In this document: positions 7,529-14,062 of the stretch, one piece after another
Numbering within the stretch: position 1 is the stretch's first letter
Layout: each line of letters starts with the position of its first letter
Assembly (NCBI GenBank): GCA_029932675.1
Contig: JAOZPP010000003.1
Coordinates: 20,137 to 84,136 of the forward strand
Origin: a bacterium
Lineage (GTDB): Bacteria > SM23-81 > DAOVCL01
Direction of reading: 5' to 3'
Length of the DNA: 64,000 bases
Program-made: the position numbers and the translations under genes
Notes under the pieces: model-generated
The model's database searches: none
The model's input: only the letters and a program-made list of their open reading frames with translations
Told to the model about the DNA's origin: nothing

Positions 7529-8557
7529 TTATCTGCCAAAGGCATATAGCCAGCCGTCATCTGCCCCCACCAATATTAGCTCCCGGGCGTGGAGGGGTGA
7601 AAACCTGATGCTCCCCCCCAATTTGCATTGCCATCTGAGTTTTCCCTCTCCGTCCAGGGCATAGATGTTCCCATCAAAGGAGCCGAAGAAGAGGTATCCC
7701 CAAAGGGGGACCGGTGATGAGTGCACCAGACCGCCAGTCTGAAACTTCCAGCAGAGCCTTCCGGACTCCTCGTCCAGACAGTAGAGGGAGCGATCATTTG
7801 AGCCAAAGAGCACCTTTCCCTTCCAGAAAGAAGGGGGGGAGAGAATGTTTCCTGCGGTTTGAAAGTCCCAGAGCTTCTCCCCGCTTGCCTTATCCAAGGA
7901 GAAGAATTTGCCGCTATAGGTACCAAAGTGGATTCGCCCCTGGTGGCTTCCCAGGGGAGAGAAGATAGGGGAGAAGGCATTAAACATCCAAAGTTGTTTC
8001 CCATCTTCTGCATTTAGGCAATAGATATGTCCCTCTCCATCCCCAAAGTAGACCTCACCCTCTTCGAATAGGGGAGTGGAGTAAATTGGTCCTTTGGCCT
8101 TATATCTCCATAACATCCCTCCGTCAGAGGAATCCAAGCAGTAAAGCCATCCCCTCCCCGAGCCTACCCAGATCTTCCCCTCCTCTACTACAGGTTGGGT
8201 GAGGGGATCGGGGACCTCCGTCCGCCAGAGGGTTTTCTCCCCCAGCAAAGCCAGGACGCCATCCTGCTTCTGGGTGGAGATGAATATTGTTTCCCCTTCA
8301 CAGGAGGGGGCAGAGGCCGGATAGCCCTTCAGCCTTAGTTTCGAGATCACTTTCCCATCCCTGGGCCGAAGGATATAGATGACCTTTTTGGATGTCCCCA
8401 GAACAATTTGCTCCCCAAAGATCCGAGGTGAGGAAACCATCGGCCCTACCTTCCTCCGCCAAACAAGATGAACAACCGGAGTCTCCGAATTAAGGGAAGG
8501 CAAGAGGAGGAGGGAGAAGAGGAGGAGGGACGGAAAGTTTCTACCCCTTCTGCCCAT
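7529..8557 (-). CDS. Exported PQQ-type beta-propeller protein (BamB-like)
   Basis: The 342-residue protein has an N-terminal signal peptide (LLLFSLLLLPSLNS) and about seven propeller blades. Each blade carries the PQQ-repeat pattern of a Gly-Asp/Ser segment followed by (L/I)YCLD..dG..LW, for example near residues 135, 175 and 255. BamB, the outer-membrane assembly lipoprotein, has this fold, as do PQQ dehydrogenases; no PQQ ligand residues or lipobox are apparent. Its ATG overlaps the stop of the upstream barrel gene (TGATG), so translation is coupled. This suggests the propeller works with that Omp85-like protein. The call BamB-like is inferred from fold and neighbour. Confidence 0.75.
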   Translation of the reverse strand: MGRRGRNFPSLLLFSLLLLPSLNSETPVVHLVWRRKVGPMVSSPRIFGEQIVLGTSKKVIYILRPRDGKVISKLRLKGYPASAPSCEGETIFISTQKQDGVLALLGEKTLWRTEVPDPLTQPVVEEGKIWVGSGRGWLYCLDSSDGGMLWRYKAKGPIYSTPLFEEGEVYFGDGEGHIYCLNAEDGKQLWMFNAFSPIFSPLGSHQGRIHFGTYSGKFFSLDKASGEKLWDFQTAGNILSPPSFWKGKVLFGSNDRSLYCLDEESGRLCWKFQTGGLVHSSPVPLWGYLFFGSFDGNIYALDGEGKLRWQCKLGGSIRFSPLHARELILVGADDGWLYAFGR

Positions 8558-11322
8558 CAGAAATCCCAGCCAAAGAAGAAGTTAAACCTTACCCCCCGGT
8601 CCAAAGATTGAAAATCAGTGGTCTTTGACCAGTCGAACCTCAGGGCAGTGTAGTAGCCGAGACCAACCCTAAACCCTACGCCAATGCTCCCCTTAAGCCC
8701 ATCTAAGTCCTCTTCCCAGGCATTTCCCATATCGAAGAAGAGGGCCCCCCTTATCCCCCTAAAGTCGAAATCCCCTATAGGGGAAGCCATAAGAAGCCGA
8801 TCCAATAGGGGGAAGCGAAGTTCATTGTTGATGAGGAGAAGATGGCGTCCCATAAATGACCTCCTCTTATATCCCCTCATACTCCAACTCCCTCCCATAT
8901 AGAACCTTTGCGGTTCCTTGCCCTGAGATGTCCTTCCCACTATACGGAAGGCCCAACAACTTCTCCTGGTCAGCCGGAGGTAATTCCTTAGGTCTATGGA
9001 GAGATAACGGTCATAAACTTCCAAATGAAAGGGATCAACGGTTAGGGCCAAGCTGAGGTTGAACCTGAGACCATCAATGGGCCCAACCCCTCCCCAGAGG
9101 GAGGTATCCTTGATTAGGGAGAGGTAAACGGTGGAGAGAAAAGCCTTCCTTGGTTTCTCCCTCCACCAGGGTTTCTTTTCTGAACGTCTGAAAAGAAAAC
9201 TGGCCTCTGCCCTCTCAAATTTGGTCAAGGGATAGCTGAGGCTGGCCAATCCACCGTATTCCCTCTCCGAATACCAGCCTTCGTAATCATCATAATACTC
9301 ATCGTAGAAGTGAAAAAGGCCAGTGCCATAGTTGAACCTGTGTTCTAAATTTAGGTACCAGGCCCCTAAATTAAAGCTGGAGAAGAAATCGGCACTTGTG
9401 CGAGCGGTATTCCCCAGAAGGAAGTAATATTGGTGATTGCCTAAGACATCGCTAACCACGGCCTGAATTCCTCCAACAGCTCCCCTATGCAGGTTGTAGG
9501 CCATTGCGCTTTGAGCGAGGTCTAAGGAGAACTTTCTCCTGTATCTTACACTGGCCTGGGTGATGGTTCCAGCAATCGAAGGTGGGCTCCAGGATTTCCC
9601 TTCTTGCGGTGCGGAATCCCCCACCACTAACGTATCCTCCAAACTTTTTCTGTATATCTGGTAGCTATATCCCTCATAGACGGAGAAATATAGCTCTTTC
9701 CCCTCTCTTCCCCAGCAGGGATCAAATGCCCCGGTGAGGAGATTGGTTGCCTTTACTATCCTTTCTCCCTTCAAGAGATAAAGATTGAAGATCCCTTCTT
9801 CTCTATCTGAGGCGAAGACGATCTCCCCTCCATTGGGGGAAAAGGACGGGGAAAGGTCGTGATGGGGCCCCCAGGTAAGCTGAGTAATCTTCCCATCTTC
9901 AAGGTTATAGGAGAAGAGGTTGTAGTATCCATCCTTACCCCAGGAGCCTCGATCAGAACTGAAACATATTTCCTCCCCTAATGGGGACCAAGATGGTTCT
10001 CGCTCATCGTAGATATCCTTGGTAAGCCTGTGGAGTCTCCCATCGTTTAATTCAACGAGGTAGAGGTCATGAAGGCCCGATTTGTCAGCTCCCACCAGGA
10101 CTATCCGCTTAGAGTCAGGTGACCAACTGGGTGAGGAGAGGAAGATGAGTTCGGGGAAGCCAAACCATCTCTCCACCCTCCCCCGCTTTAAGTCGTAAAG
10201 GTAGAGGACATCCCCTTCATTCCTCTTGGCCACGAAGGCAAGTTTCCCTTCTTGGGAGATGGACATCCTCCCCCTGAGGAGGTGAAGGGATTCGAATTCT
10301 TCCGCCCTCTCCCCTTTCACTAAGAGCTTGACCCCTCCCTCCTCTCCCCGAGGGGGAATGGAATAGATGTTCGAATAACCCATTCTGCTCGATTTAAAGA
10401 CTACCTCTTCTTCACCGGAGTCAGGCTGGAAGACGGCTGGTTTTACATTTATCCCCTGAGAGGTCAACTTGACCGCAGCCAGCTCCGGGAGATCGCTCCC
10501 CTTCATCTGGGGGAAGTAGGATTTCTTTAACCACCAACTCCACTCCTTATCCAAAGTCTTTAGGTCCTTGCCTAAGGTATTTTTAAAATCGCCATTTAGA
10601 TCATTTGCTTTCCAGCAATTCTCTAAGAGGAGCCATAGCTTTTCCTCCCCATATGTTTGAGAGATAAACCTGAGGAATGACTGCCCTTCCTTATACATAA
10701 GGTAAGTTCCCTCGATCTGGGCCATCTGGGAAAGGGGAACGAACTCTCCTGAGATAATCGCATCCCTCATCACCATATCCGCTTCCTCATCCCAGCCCAC
10801 GGACCAATATTCGGCTATCCCCTCGGTGAACCAAAGGGGAGGGCCTCTGAAGTTATACTTGTGGTGGTCTTTGAGCACCTTGTTCAACTTTTCGAAGGTG
10901 AATACATGGACGAGTTCATGTTTTATTGAGTGCTTCAGTTTGGAATAGGAACCTTCAAAGGGAACCACCACCCTCCCCTTGATTTGCTCCATAAATGCTT
11001 CTACCGCCTCTGGTAGGAGGAGGGGGGTCACATTTGTCTGCTGAAAGTAGTTTTTGGTGCTGTAGAGGATGAGGGGAATCTTGTGGGAAGGGGTATAATT
11101 GAATTTGCTCTCCAGGTCCTGATAGCTTTCCTCTGCTATGCGCGCGGCAATCCCGGCCACCTCTTCCTCTTCTGGGTAGAAATAGACCCGAAAGTGGCTG
11201 GTCTCCATCACCCTCCAGTCGAATTGGGTATACTGGATCTTATTTTTTCCGAAATAGTATTGAGCCCTGGCCGAGGAAGCCAAGAGAAAGAAAAGTAAGA
11301 AGGGGAAAATCTTCTTCCACAT
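8557..11322 (-). CDS. Metallopeptidase-MA / TolB-like propeller / Omp85-type barrel fusion
   Basis: From the preferred start the product is 921 residues. The start at 11322 gives a clean signal peptide (MWKKIFPFLLFFLL...ARA-Q); an in-frame ATG at 11385 would add 21 residues ahead of it. Residues about 20-270 form a peptidase-MA-like domain with HELVH at 135-139 and the downstream glutamate in WFTEGIAEYW near 167, the pattern of a gluzincin zinc site. Residues about 280-570 hold TolB/WD40-like repeats (SPSWSPDSKRIVLVGA, PSFSPNGGEIVFASD). The last 300 residues look like a surface-antigen beta-barrel: SMRGY near residue 817 corresponds to the Omp85 VRGF loop motif, and the chain ends in aromatic Phe. 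It likely sits in the outer membrane with both soluble domains in the periplasm. It is coupled to the BamB-like gene downstream. Confidence 0.78.
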   Translation of the reverse strand: MWKKIFPFLLFFLLASSARAQYYFGKNKIQYTQFDWRVMETSHFRVYFYPEEEEVAGIAARIAEESYQDLESKFNYTPSHKIPLILYSTKNYFQQTNVTPLLLPEAVEAFMEQIKGRVVVPFEGSYSKLKHSIKHELVHVFTFEKLNKVLKDHHKYNFRGPPLWFTEGIAEYWSVGWDEEADMVMRDAIISGEFVPLSQMAQIEGTYLMYKEGQSFLRFISQTYGEEKLWLLLENCWKANDLNGDFKNTLGKDLKTLDKEWSWWLKKSYFPQMKGSDLPELAAVKLTSQGINVKPAVFQPDSGEEEVVFKSSRMGYSNIYSIPPRGEEGGVKLLVKGERAEEFESLHLLRGRMSISQEGKLAFVAKRNEGDVLYLYDLKRGRVERWFGFPELIFLSSPSWSPDSKRIVLVGADKSGLHDLYLVELNDGRLHRLTKDIYDEREPSWSPLGEEICFSSDRGSWGKDGYYNLFSYNLEDGKITQLTWGPHHDLSPSFSPNGGEIVFASDREEGIFNLYLLKGERIVKATNLLTGAFDPCWGREGKELYFSVYEGYSYQIYRKSLEDTLVVGDSAPQEGKSWSPPSIAGTITQASVRYRRKFSLDLAQSAMAYNLHRGAVGGIQAVVSDVLGNHQYYFLLGNTARTSADFFSSFNLGAWYLNLEHRFNYGTGLFHFYDEYYDDYEGWYSEREYGGLASLSYPLTKFERAEASFLFRRSEKKPWWREKPRKAFLSTVYLSLIKDTSLWGGVGPIDGLRFNLSLALTVDPFHLEVYDRYLSIDLRNYLRLTRRSCWAFRIVGRTSQGKEPQRFYMGGSWSMRGYKRRSFMGRHLLLINNELRFPLLDRLLMASPIGDFDFRGIRGALFFDMGNAWEEDLDGLKGSIGVGFRVGLGYYTALRFDWSKTTDFQSLDRGVRFNFFFGWDF

Positions 11323-11555
11323 GGCAAGGCTAAGATAAGAAGCAGAGGAGGGAAAAGCAAGCGGAAAGATAAGGGGCTGACCCATTATCGGAGTGGTGGA
11401 TCGAGCTTTACTTCTATAAGGTTCAGTTGTTTGCGGAACTCCAGGGGGGCGAAGCCCCTATAGAGAACTTTGCCAACGTGGTGCGCTAAGGACTGAATAG
11501 AAAGGATGGTGAGTAATTTTGCTTATCTGTTTTTTTCCACTGGGCTCTGGAACCT

Positions 11556-12070: not shown

Positions 12071-12760
12071 CTACTTCAGAAGTAGCATGGCTCTCGTTGC
12101 ACTGTATCCCCCAGCTTGTAGGCGATAGTAATAAACCCCACTGGCAACTTCCTTCCCCTCTTCATCCCTCCCATCCCAAGTTAAACTGTGATGACCAGAG
12201 CCTGCTTCTCCATCCAAAAGCGTAATAACCCTTTTGCCAACAGTATCAAACACTTTCAAGGAGACCGAAGTAGATTCTGGTAGATCAAATTCAATATCTG
12301 TCTGGGGATTGAAGGGATTGGGGAAGTTTTGAGATAGATTGTAGATGTGGGAGGCAGGAGGGTCATCAGAATCTTTTGCTAAAAATCCACAGACCATCTC
12401 CTTTTCATTTATATCAACTACAGCAAGTTTATAGTAGCAGTTTGAATTGTCTCTCAAGGGATATACATAGGGGGTCTGGCCGATCACCAAGTTCTCATTT
12501 ATCTTGGTGTAACCTTTGGCTCTGGTGGGACTGCCATAAAGGTTGAAGCCTAAGATCTTCCTCTCCTCTTTTGTCTCCCATTCAAGCCTTGTGACCCCTC
12601 TGTCTGAAAGGAGATTAAAAGACTCGAGTTCTACGCCGTGTTCTACTTCATACCTCAAGATGCTGAGGAAGGGATTTTGCTCCGGTTTTGTAGGATTTTT
12701 CCAACACCCTATAATCAAACCGATTGAAACCAATAAAATGAGAGAACTAAACCTTCTCAT
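12071..12760 (-). CDS. Lipoprotein with C-terminal FlgD-like / type IX-type sorting domain
   Basis: The 229-residue protein begins with a lipoprotein signal (LIGLIIGC-like, Cys near residue 19). Its last 85 residues match the secretion-associated C-terminal domain: NLSQNFPNPFNPQTDIEF, LKVFDTVGKRVITLL, SLTWDGRDEEGKEVASGVYY and a basic hydrophobic tail. The middle part has a fibronectin-like strand pattern (LEWETKEERKILGFNLYG). It follows the FadL-type barrel gene by 15 bp and is probably co-expressed. A lipobox together with a sorting domain is unusual, since type IX cargo normally has an ordinary signal peptide. Confidence 0.75.
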   Translation of the reverse strand: MRRFSSLILLVSIGLIIGCWKNPTKPEQNPFLSILRYEVEHGVELESFNLLSDRGVTRLEWETKEERKILGFNLYGSPTRAKGYTKINENLVIGQTPYVYPLRDNSNCYYKLAVVDINEKEMVCGFLAKDSDDPPASHIYNLSQNFPNPFNPQTDIEFDLPESTSVSLKVFDTVGKRVITLLDGEAGSGHHSLTWDGRDEEGKEVASGVYYYRLQAGGYSATRAMLLLK

Positions 12761-12775
12761 TTGCTTTACCTCTTT

Positions 12776-14062
12776 TTACTTTATCTTCAACGAGGTCGAG
12801 AGAATGAGGGAAAATCCGCTGTTGTCACCAGGCGACAGTATCCTGCCGTCTGCATAGGAGATGTCGAACTGATAAAAACCCTTGTGAAAACCTGTGCCCA
12901 AGGTAAGGGAATATTGGATCCCAGTGGAAAAGGGAAGACTCTTGTAATCTGGTGAGGTGAAGAATCCAAGCCTCAGAGGGATATGCTCATTTATCTTAAA
13001 TCTCATGCCAAAATGAAGTTCTGTTCTATCCTTCCAGTTGTAATTTATCAACTGGTTATGGTAAATATCCGCCTGAGAGGAGTCAATAAAAACTGTCTTC
13101 TCATCTTCGACCATGCATCTTGCCTCTGATCCCTTTACATAAACCACCTCTCCAGCAAACCACAATGACTTAAAGGGGTTAAAGGAAACCCCTGCTCCAT
13201 ACCTGTCTGGTATGGTGAAATATCCATCTGCCTTTCCATGGAATTCATTGGGAACATTCTCCTGGTCACTTTGATAGCCAATTAAGAATAAAGAATGGGA
13301 CTCATCCCAGTGAACCTTCCCATATCTTTTCGCCACCAGCCCAAGCGATAGCTTTCTATTCGGCCTGAAATATAGGCCAAAATCGTAGCCAAATCCATTA
13401 CCAGACAATGAGTTGAGATGTTTCGGATGAAACTCGCCTATTATATTCCCAAGGGCATCAGTCTGTTTCTGTGGCTCATAATCGATCTCCAGCCTGCCAT
13501 CGGTGTGAATGTAGGAGAGATTTATCCCTATCGCTATGTTTTTTCTTAGCCGACGAGCTAGTGTTAAGGTAAAGGCATCACAGTTTAGGTGTCCAAGGTG
13601 AGTGGCTTTGGGGGCCATCAACAACTTTACATCAATTGGTATAGCAAAAATTGGGCTATAGCTCAGTCCAACTGTAAACAGTGGGGTGGAAAAGGTCATA
13701 AATCCATCTACCATATGATGGTGGTTATATCTGTAATCGCTATCGGCTATCTCCTCATAGTTGTTTCTGACTCTTATCCCATTTCTGCTACTATACCCAT
13801 AGACGAGTGTGGCATTTGCCCCCTCCAACAGTGCCGCCCCAGCGGGGTTCCAACAGATTGCTGAGGCGTCCTCTAATCCGGAAGAGTGGACATTGCCCAT
13901 TCCCATAGCCTTGGGATCAGAACCATAAAAACCTGAAGGGCCGATATTCCTTACAAACCGGAAGAGATATAGGTGGCCTCCGTAATCGTCAGAACCATAA
14001 GCCAACCCAACACTCAAAAATCCGAGCAAAACTATGAGAGCGAAAACTGCTTTCTTATTCAT
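12776..14062 (-). CDS. FadL/OMPP1-type outer-membrane beta-barrel protein
   Basis: The 428-residue protein has a signal peptide (MNKKAVFALIVLLGFLSVGLAYG). It then carries the FadL/PorV-style motif PKAMGMGNVHSSGLEDASAICWNPAGAA (begins near residue 50, quoted here in pieces: MGMGNVHSSG, DASAICWNPAGAA). The remainder alternates hydrophobic and polar residues in long beta strands with short turns, ending in SLKIK. FadL proteins import hydrophobic substrates, and the related PorV shuttles type IX cargo. Either role is possible, and the neighbouring sorting-domain lipoprotein makes the PorV-like role worth testing. It heads the group 12776, 12071, 11556. Confidence 0.75.
   Translation of the reverse strand: MNKKAVFALIVLLGFLSVGLAYGSDDYGGHLYLFRFVRNIGPSGFYGSDPKAMGMGNVHSSGLEDASAICWNPAGAALLEGANATLVYGYSSRNGIRVRNNYEEIADSDYRYNHHHMVDGFMTFSTPLFTVGLSYSPIFAIPIDVKLLMAPKATHLGHLNCDAFTLTLARRLRKNIAIGINLSYIHTDGRLEIDYEPQKQTDALGNIIGEFHPKHLNSLSGNGFGYDFGLYFRPNRKLSLGLVAKRYGKVHWDESHSLFLIGYQSDQENVPNEFHGKADGYFTIPDRYGAGVSFNPFKSLWFAGEVVYVKGSEARCMVEDEKTVFIDSSQADIYHNQLINYNWKDRTELHFGMRFKINEHIPLRLGFFTSPDYKSLPFSTGIQYSLTLGTGFHKGFYQFDISYADGRILSPGDNSGFSLILSTSLKIK

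Follow-up and report, generated by a model that had tools for sequence, protein, structure and literature searches.

A predicted zinc peptidase joined to a TolB-like propeller and an Omp85-type barrel, with a coupled BamB-like gene, in several FCB phyla

Introduction

Beyond BamA, TamA, and the TpsB group, a number of Omp85 subfamilies have been catalogued but hardly studied. In a bacterial DNA stretch of 64,000 nucleotides (hereafter, the window), a first-pass annotation proposed that one open reading frame fuses a zinc peptidase, a TolB-like propeller, and an Omp85-type barrel, that the next gene encodes a BamB-like protein, and that the two products may form a self-contained machine for insertion or quality control in the envelope. 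We examined the composition of the chain, its distribution and neighbors, and the other Omp85 proteins of the genome. This protein pair represents a way into the upkeep of the outer membrane in FCB-type bacteria.

Domain composition of the 921-residue protein

The gene is located on the minus strand (8557..11322) and encodes 921 amino acids followed by a stop codon, with a signal peptide, a gluzincin peptidase, a TolB-like propeller, and an Omp85 barrel. The signal peptide (residues 1-20; 11263..11322, minus) ends with ARA followed by Q and was judged by eye to be of the signal-peptidase-I type. An alternative in-frame ATG is present at 11385; however, it is the less likely start, given that 11322 is where the signal peptide begins. 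With the curated Pfam cut-offs, Peptidase_MA_2 scored 39.3 bits (cut-off 32.4), PD40 41.2 bits (20.9), and Omp85 41.9 bits (24), and the domains follow each other in the order of Peptidase_MA_2, the PD40 repeats, and Omp85 from the N to the C terminus. The presence of all three modules in one chain, as the first-pass annotation had proposed, is confirmed by this profile search, and the HELVH motif, the downstream Glu, RGY, and the terminal Phe, which is the last residue of the protein, were all located in the open reading frame. Chance motif matches were ruled out by the scores over the family cut-offs and by conservation, and the architecture lies far beyond chance because full-length homologues with approximately 30-53% identity and the same domain order occur in several phyla.

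The peptidase domain

The gluzincin (Peptidase MA) domain covers residues 30-275 (10498..11235, minus), as indicated by Pfam PF13485 over its cut-off, AlphaFold2, and a fold search. This region was folded and searched alone, and the structural comparison with the whole model barely covered it. The isolated domain was modeled with a pLDDT of 87.5, and its best fold matches were the peptidase units of collagenases, the M30 peptidase lugdulysin, and M1 aminopeptidases (Z 13.5-17.4 over 197-229 residues), all of which are gluzincins. At the level of sequence profiles, the domain matched an M1 aminopeptidase with an E-value of 0.00029; a match to a collagenase was weaker (E 0.011).

The HELVH motif (residues 135-139; 10906..10920, minus) provides two predicted zinc ligands and the predicted general-base Glu, and its H, E, and H are identical in 59/59 homologues. 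The predicted third zinc ligand is E167 in WxxEG (10822..10824, minus), and Y210 (10693..10695, minus) is a candidate catalytic Tyr; both are identical in 59/59. In a profile alignment, Y210 pairs with a Tyr of Vibrio collagenase whose index in the aligned chain is 549; Y549A is a mutant in PDB 9l5o, the numbering of which is presumed to match this index. The positions invariant in the 59 homologues are H135, E136, H139, W164, E167, G168, and Y210, while many of the whole homologues are less than 40% identical to the window protein and the ten-sequence alignment has a mean column identity of approximately 41%. The features that define gluzincins, HExxH with a downstream Glu ligand and the gluzincin fold, were found, the former in 59/59. 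The invariance of every predicted catalytic position suggests that the peptidase is active in each copy of the family, a prediction made from sequence conservation, and it ruled out a dead peptidase scaffold.

The propeller and the barrel

The middle of the chain (residues ~278-565; 9628..10491, minus) consists of PD40 repeats and was identified as a TolB-like beta-propeller by its structural match to TolB (Z 28.0, 2.4 A, 244 residues), with a score below the cut-off of the TolB equivalog TIGR02800 (127.3 versus 343.15 bits). The C-terminal region (residues 598-921; 8560..9531, minus) was assigned as an Omp85-type barrel by AlphaFold2, PF01103, and its match to BamA (Z ~20, 3.8-4.4 A, ~295-297 residues). 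No POTRA domain was detected in the Pfam scan, and none is present between the propeller and barrel in the AlphaFold2 model.

The full chain, modeled with an alignment of ten homologues, reached a pLDDT of 75.5 and a pTM of 0.73. A 16-strand barrel, on which the first-pass annotation had staked its Omp85 assignment in advance, is present in this model, with exactly 16 long strands in residues 598-919. RGY (residues 816-818; 8869..8877, minus) is placed between strands 11 and 12, in a loop of 26 residues that corresponds in position to L6 of BamA, and the R of this motif is kept in 58/59 homologues. On the strand number and the place of RGY in the loop, the refuting condition set by the first-pass annotation was not borne out by the model. 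The proposed identity of the SMRGY loop with the Omp85 motif holds, since MRGY occupies the L6 position and is profile-aligned to VRGF of BamA: GGSW-x-RGY aligns with GGSSTVRGF, and FFDMGNAW with FFWDMGTVWD. D864 in FFDMGNAW (8731..8733, minus) is kept in 58/59 homologues, as is E834 (8821..8823, minus) in the homologue alignment. E834 is a candidate partner of R816, a role that it would have by analogy with BamA. The barrel R/E/D residues and a C-terminal Gly are retained in 57-58/59 homologues. Two features of the Omp85/TpsB superfamily, a 16-stranded barrel and (V/L)RG(F/Y) in loop 6, were found.

The even number of strands and the C-terminal Phe imply that the barrel ends, and hence the propeller and peptidase, are periplasmic. 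This topology bears on the notion of a type Vd-like system in which the peptidase and propeller are secreted through the barrel and yield a protease at the cell surface, as was originally proposed for PlpD and as the resemblance of the peptidase fold to secreted collagenases may suggest. We regard this as very improbable because both ends of the barrel appear to face the periplasm, a BamB-like lipoprotein partner suggests the same face, and the type Vd model has been contradicted by experiment for PlpD itself (PMC11116518).

The BamB-like partner gene

The next gene (7529..8557, minus) encodes a BamB-like PQQ propeller of 342 amino acids with a signal peptide and no lipobox Cys, and the stop codon of the 921-residue frame overlaps its ATG as TGATG. 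The coupling noted in the first-pass annotation is thus directly visible, and the linkage is conserved across phyla. The product scored 123.8 bits against PQQ_2 (PF13360; cut-off 27.6) and remained below the cut-off of the BamB equivalog TIGR03300 (147.4 versus 285.2 bits); in each of six relatives that were scanned, the partner was also above this PQQ_2 cut-off. In eleven relatives of the partner, the signal peptide has a Cys at its end and the product is a predicted lipoprotein, whereas no lipidation Cys is present in the first 70 residues of the window partner, which is therefore probably a soluble periplasmic protein here, as judged from its sequence. The N terminus of the window partner is shorter than those of its relatives.

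In most of the 27 gene pairs that were measured, the two genes overlap or are separated by no more than 15 bases. The neighboring loci sampled were best hits rather than a random selection; within them, a co-directional BamB-like gene directly downstream was found at 17/20 type I loci in the phylum of genome G048, and a BamB-like neighbor was also present in Zixibacteria, KSB1, Ignavibacteria, Marinimicrobia, Bacteroidetes, and at loci of the window's own phylum. In a tree, the window protein falls in a clade of 35 rows with a support of 100 by a quick method, as against a longer paralogue class of approximately 990-1100 amino acids. Most members of this first clade outside the phylum of G048 have the BamB-like gene directly after them on the same strand, with one gene in between in G012, whereas the neighbor was absent at 15/15 loci of the second (type II) paralogue class. 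Several of these type I and type II genes come from the same genomes, and their difference in the BamB-like neighbor serves as an internal control. Several divergent members without linkage to a BamB-like gene exist and, together with the second paralogue class, indicate that the partner is not obligatory. At loci L087-L106, in the phylum of G048, the BamB-like gene is often followed by a gene of approximately 270 amino acids, one of which was scanned and carries a PEGA domain; a third gene of this type is absent beside the window copy.

Distribution

Full-length relatives occur in Zixibacteria, KSB1, Ignavibacteria, Marinimicrobia, Glassbacteria, and one Bacteroidetes MAG, with more distant relatives in Gemmatimonadota. 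In the window's own phylum, the family was present in 4/4 genomes, and in the phylum of G048 it was present in 82/82 of those sampled. The fusion and its neighbor, the occurrence of which in other genomes had been a point to be counted, thus recur across several FCB phyla.

Other Omp85 and envelope genes in the genome

The genome encodes its own BamA of 755 amino acids with four POTRA stretches and, as recognized by eye, Skp-, LpxD-, and LpxC-like neighbors, as well as a TamA-like POTRA-Omp85 protein and a further POTRA-Omp85 protein. Two more peptidase-propeller-barrel paralogues are present, and the barrel of the copy on contig C55 is below the Omp85 cut-off. At L055:3889-10293, this divergent paralogue adjoins an M6-peptidase/FG-GAP protein of 1025 aa that has a Por-type secretion tail. 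A 974-aa protein (L127:3047-5971, contig C59) combines Peptidase M1 (78.7 bits) with an Omp85-like C terminus, which scored 20.3 bits, just below the cut-off, in one scan and 24.1 in another, and represents a second gluzincin-Omp85 fusion, of a different kind, in this genome; our literature search found no paper on peptidase M1-Omp85 fusions. A patatin-POTRA-Omp85 protein of the PlpD type is encoded at L124:2681-5272 (contig C21). Two and three genes upstream in the window (12071-14062) are genes for a FadL/Toluene_X-like barrel and for a protein whose end resembles a FlgD/Por-type sorting domain; in Bacteroidota, the BAM subunits include a FadL-type protein, BamG (PMC12611786).

Because the genome has its own BamA, a TamA-like protein, and further Omp85 proteins, the window protein is an addition to BAM and not a substitute for it. 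A self-contained replacement of BAM was ruled out as the main reading by BamA and the TamA-like protein, and the first-pass proposal of a self-contained insertion machine is not supported in view of the same proteins, the further Omp85 proteins, and the lack of POTRA in the window protein. The same considerations weigh on the idea that the protein is a variant Omp85 insertase or translocase, for the insertion of barrels or the export of lipoproteins, whose peptidase trims the substrate in passage. The RGY in L6, the 16 strands, the conserved BamA-like motifs, and the BamB-like partner are what such a protein would have, and most Omp85 proteins are assembly or translocation factors according to the portion of a 2014 survey drawn on here (PMC4104836); nevertheless, with no POTRA and with BamA and TamA-like proteins already in place, this idea appears unlikely.

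A plainer alternative is that the barrel is a mere anchor or dimer platform, as in PlpD, and that the periplasmic peptidase digests peptides or a lipoprotein for nutrition or signaling, with no link to barrel assembly. PlpD is a precedent for a non-translocating enzyme-Omp85 protein, the same genome has a patatin-POTRA-Omp85 and an M1 peptidase-Omp85 protein, and the lack of POTRA along with the separate BamA and TamA-like proteins fits this alternative. However, the conservation of the barrel R/E/D residues and C-terminal Gly in 57-58/59 homologues exceeds the need of a plain anchor, and the BamB-like partner has been retained across phyla. We consider this explanation to be doubtful, but worth keeping in view.

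Proposed function

The explanation that we favor, with a probability of roughly 40%, is an outer-membrane-anchored periplasmic zinc peptidase that matures envelope proteins or controls their quality, with a propeller for docking and a BamB-like partner. The Omp85-type barrel would be seated in the outer membrane with both of its ends in the periplasm, and the TolB-like propeller below it may act as a docking platform in place of POTRA domains. Polypeptides presented at the propeller would be cut by the N-terminal gluzincin domain, and the BamB-like protein from the next gene would bind the complex. The most likely job is to mature proteins that are exported or belong to the outer membrane, or to control their quality by proteolysis, in a mode that would resemble that of BepA on BAM but within a single chain. 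The analysis itself shows the domains, a predicted fold, a predicted active site that is conserved, an operon-type linkage, and phylum-wide retention; within this explanation, we infer the topology, the binding of the partner, and the class of substrates, and the role in maturation or quality control is plausible.

By analogy, the precedents of PlpD and BepA may count in favor of an outer-membrane-anchored peptidase. On the other side, a protein with no POTRA has no known route for nascent barrels, and the window partner has no lipidation Cys. A broader version, in which the FCB phyla possess an assembly or quality-control machine parallel to BAM that is composed of a POTRA-less Omp85 protein with its own propeller and peptidase and a dedicated BamB-like lipoprotein, seems rather unlikely. 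The anchored peptidase would naturally fuse activities that are split in E. coli over BepA, BamB, and an Omp85 protein. Since the family is universal in the sampled genomes of one phylum and has a complete predicted active site and a conserved partner, it offers a concrete and testable pair.

Comparison with known systems

Regarding the middle domain and the neighboring product, the likeness to TolB and BamB, respectively, lies in the propeller folds, and both are below the equivalog cut-offs. BamA differs in its N-terminal POTRA domains, of which the window protein has none. BepA is a periplasmic Zn-peptidase that acts on an outer-membrane protein on BAM (PMC8423444); it is similar in being a periplasmic zinc peptidase at a site of outer-membrane assembly, and different in belonging to another peptidase family, M48, and in being a separate protein with no barrel. 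PlpD also has an enzyme N-terminal to an Omp85 barrel, and this enzyme has been shown by experiment to be periplasmic (PMC11116518). However, PlpD has a lipase and POTRA, whereas the window protein has a peptidase and a propeller, and no patatin domain was found in it by the Pfam scan.

In a search of the literature for the three-domain combination, the only relevant work was a survey by Heinz and Lithgow (2014), while in a 2025 paper on the Flavobacterium BAM, a peptidase or a propeller subunit is absent, with 0 occurrences of both words. In the portion of the survey drawn on here, ten Omp85/TpsB subfamilies are distinguished, and the 'Metallo' Omp85 class among its entries is named as a metalloprotease with Omp85 and defined by PF00149 (PMC4104836), whereas the window protein has PF13485 instead. 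Membership in this class was rejected as PF00149 was absent at E 1 or less in the Pfam scan. PF00149 is the metallophosphoesterase family.

The same portion of the survey describes WD40-Omp85 as a subfamily of unknown function with a TolB-like propeller and no POTRA, which its authors likened to a fusion of BamA and BamB (PMC4104836). The window protein shares the TolB-like propeller N-terminal to an Omp85 barrel and the lack of POTRA, and its family likely overlaps with this subfamily. The suspicion that the architecture was already on record is thus borne out in part, as the propeller-Omp85 combination was published as WD40-Omp85 in 2014; neither a peptidase nor a BamB-like neighbor is mentioned for the published class in that portion of the text (PMC4104836). 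Relative to the WD40-Omp85 catalogue, as far as that portion extends, the present analysis adds a peptidase that is predicted to be active, a BamB-like partner, and retention throughout a phylum.
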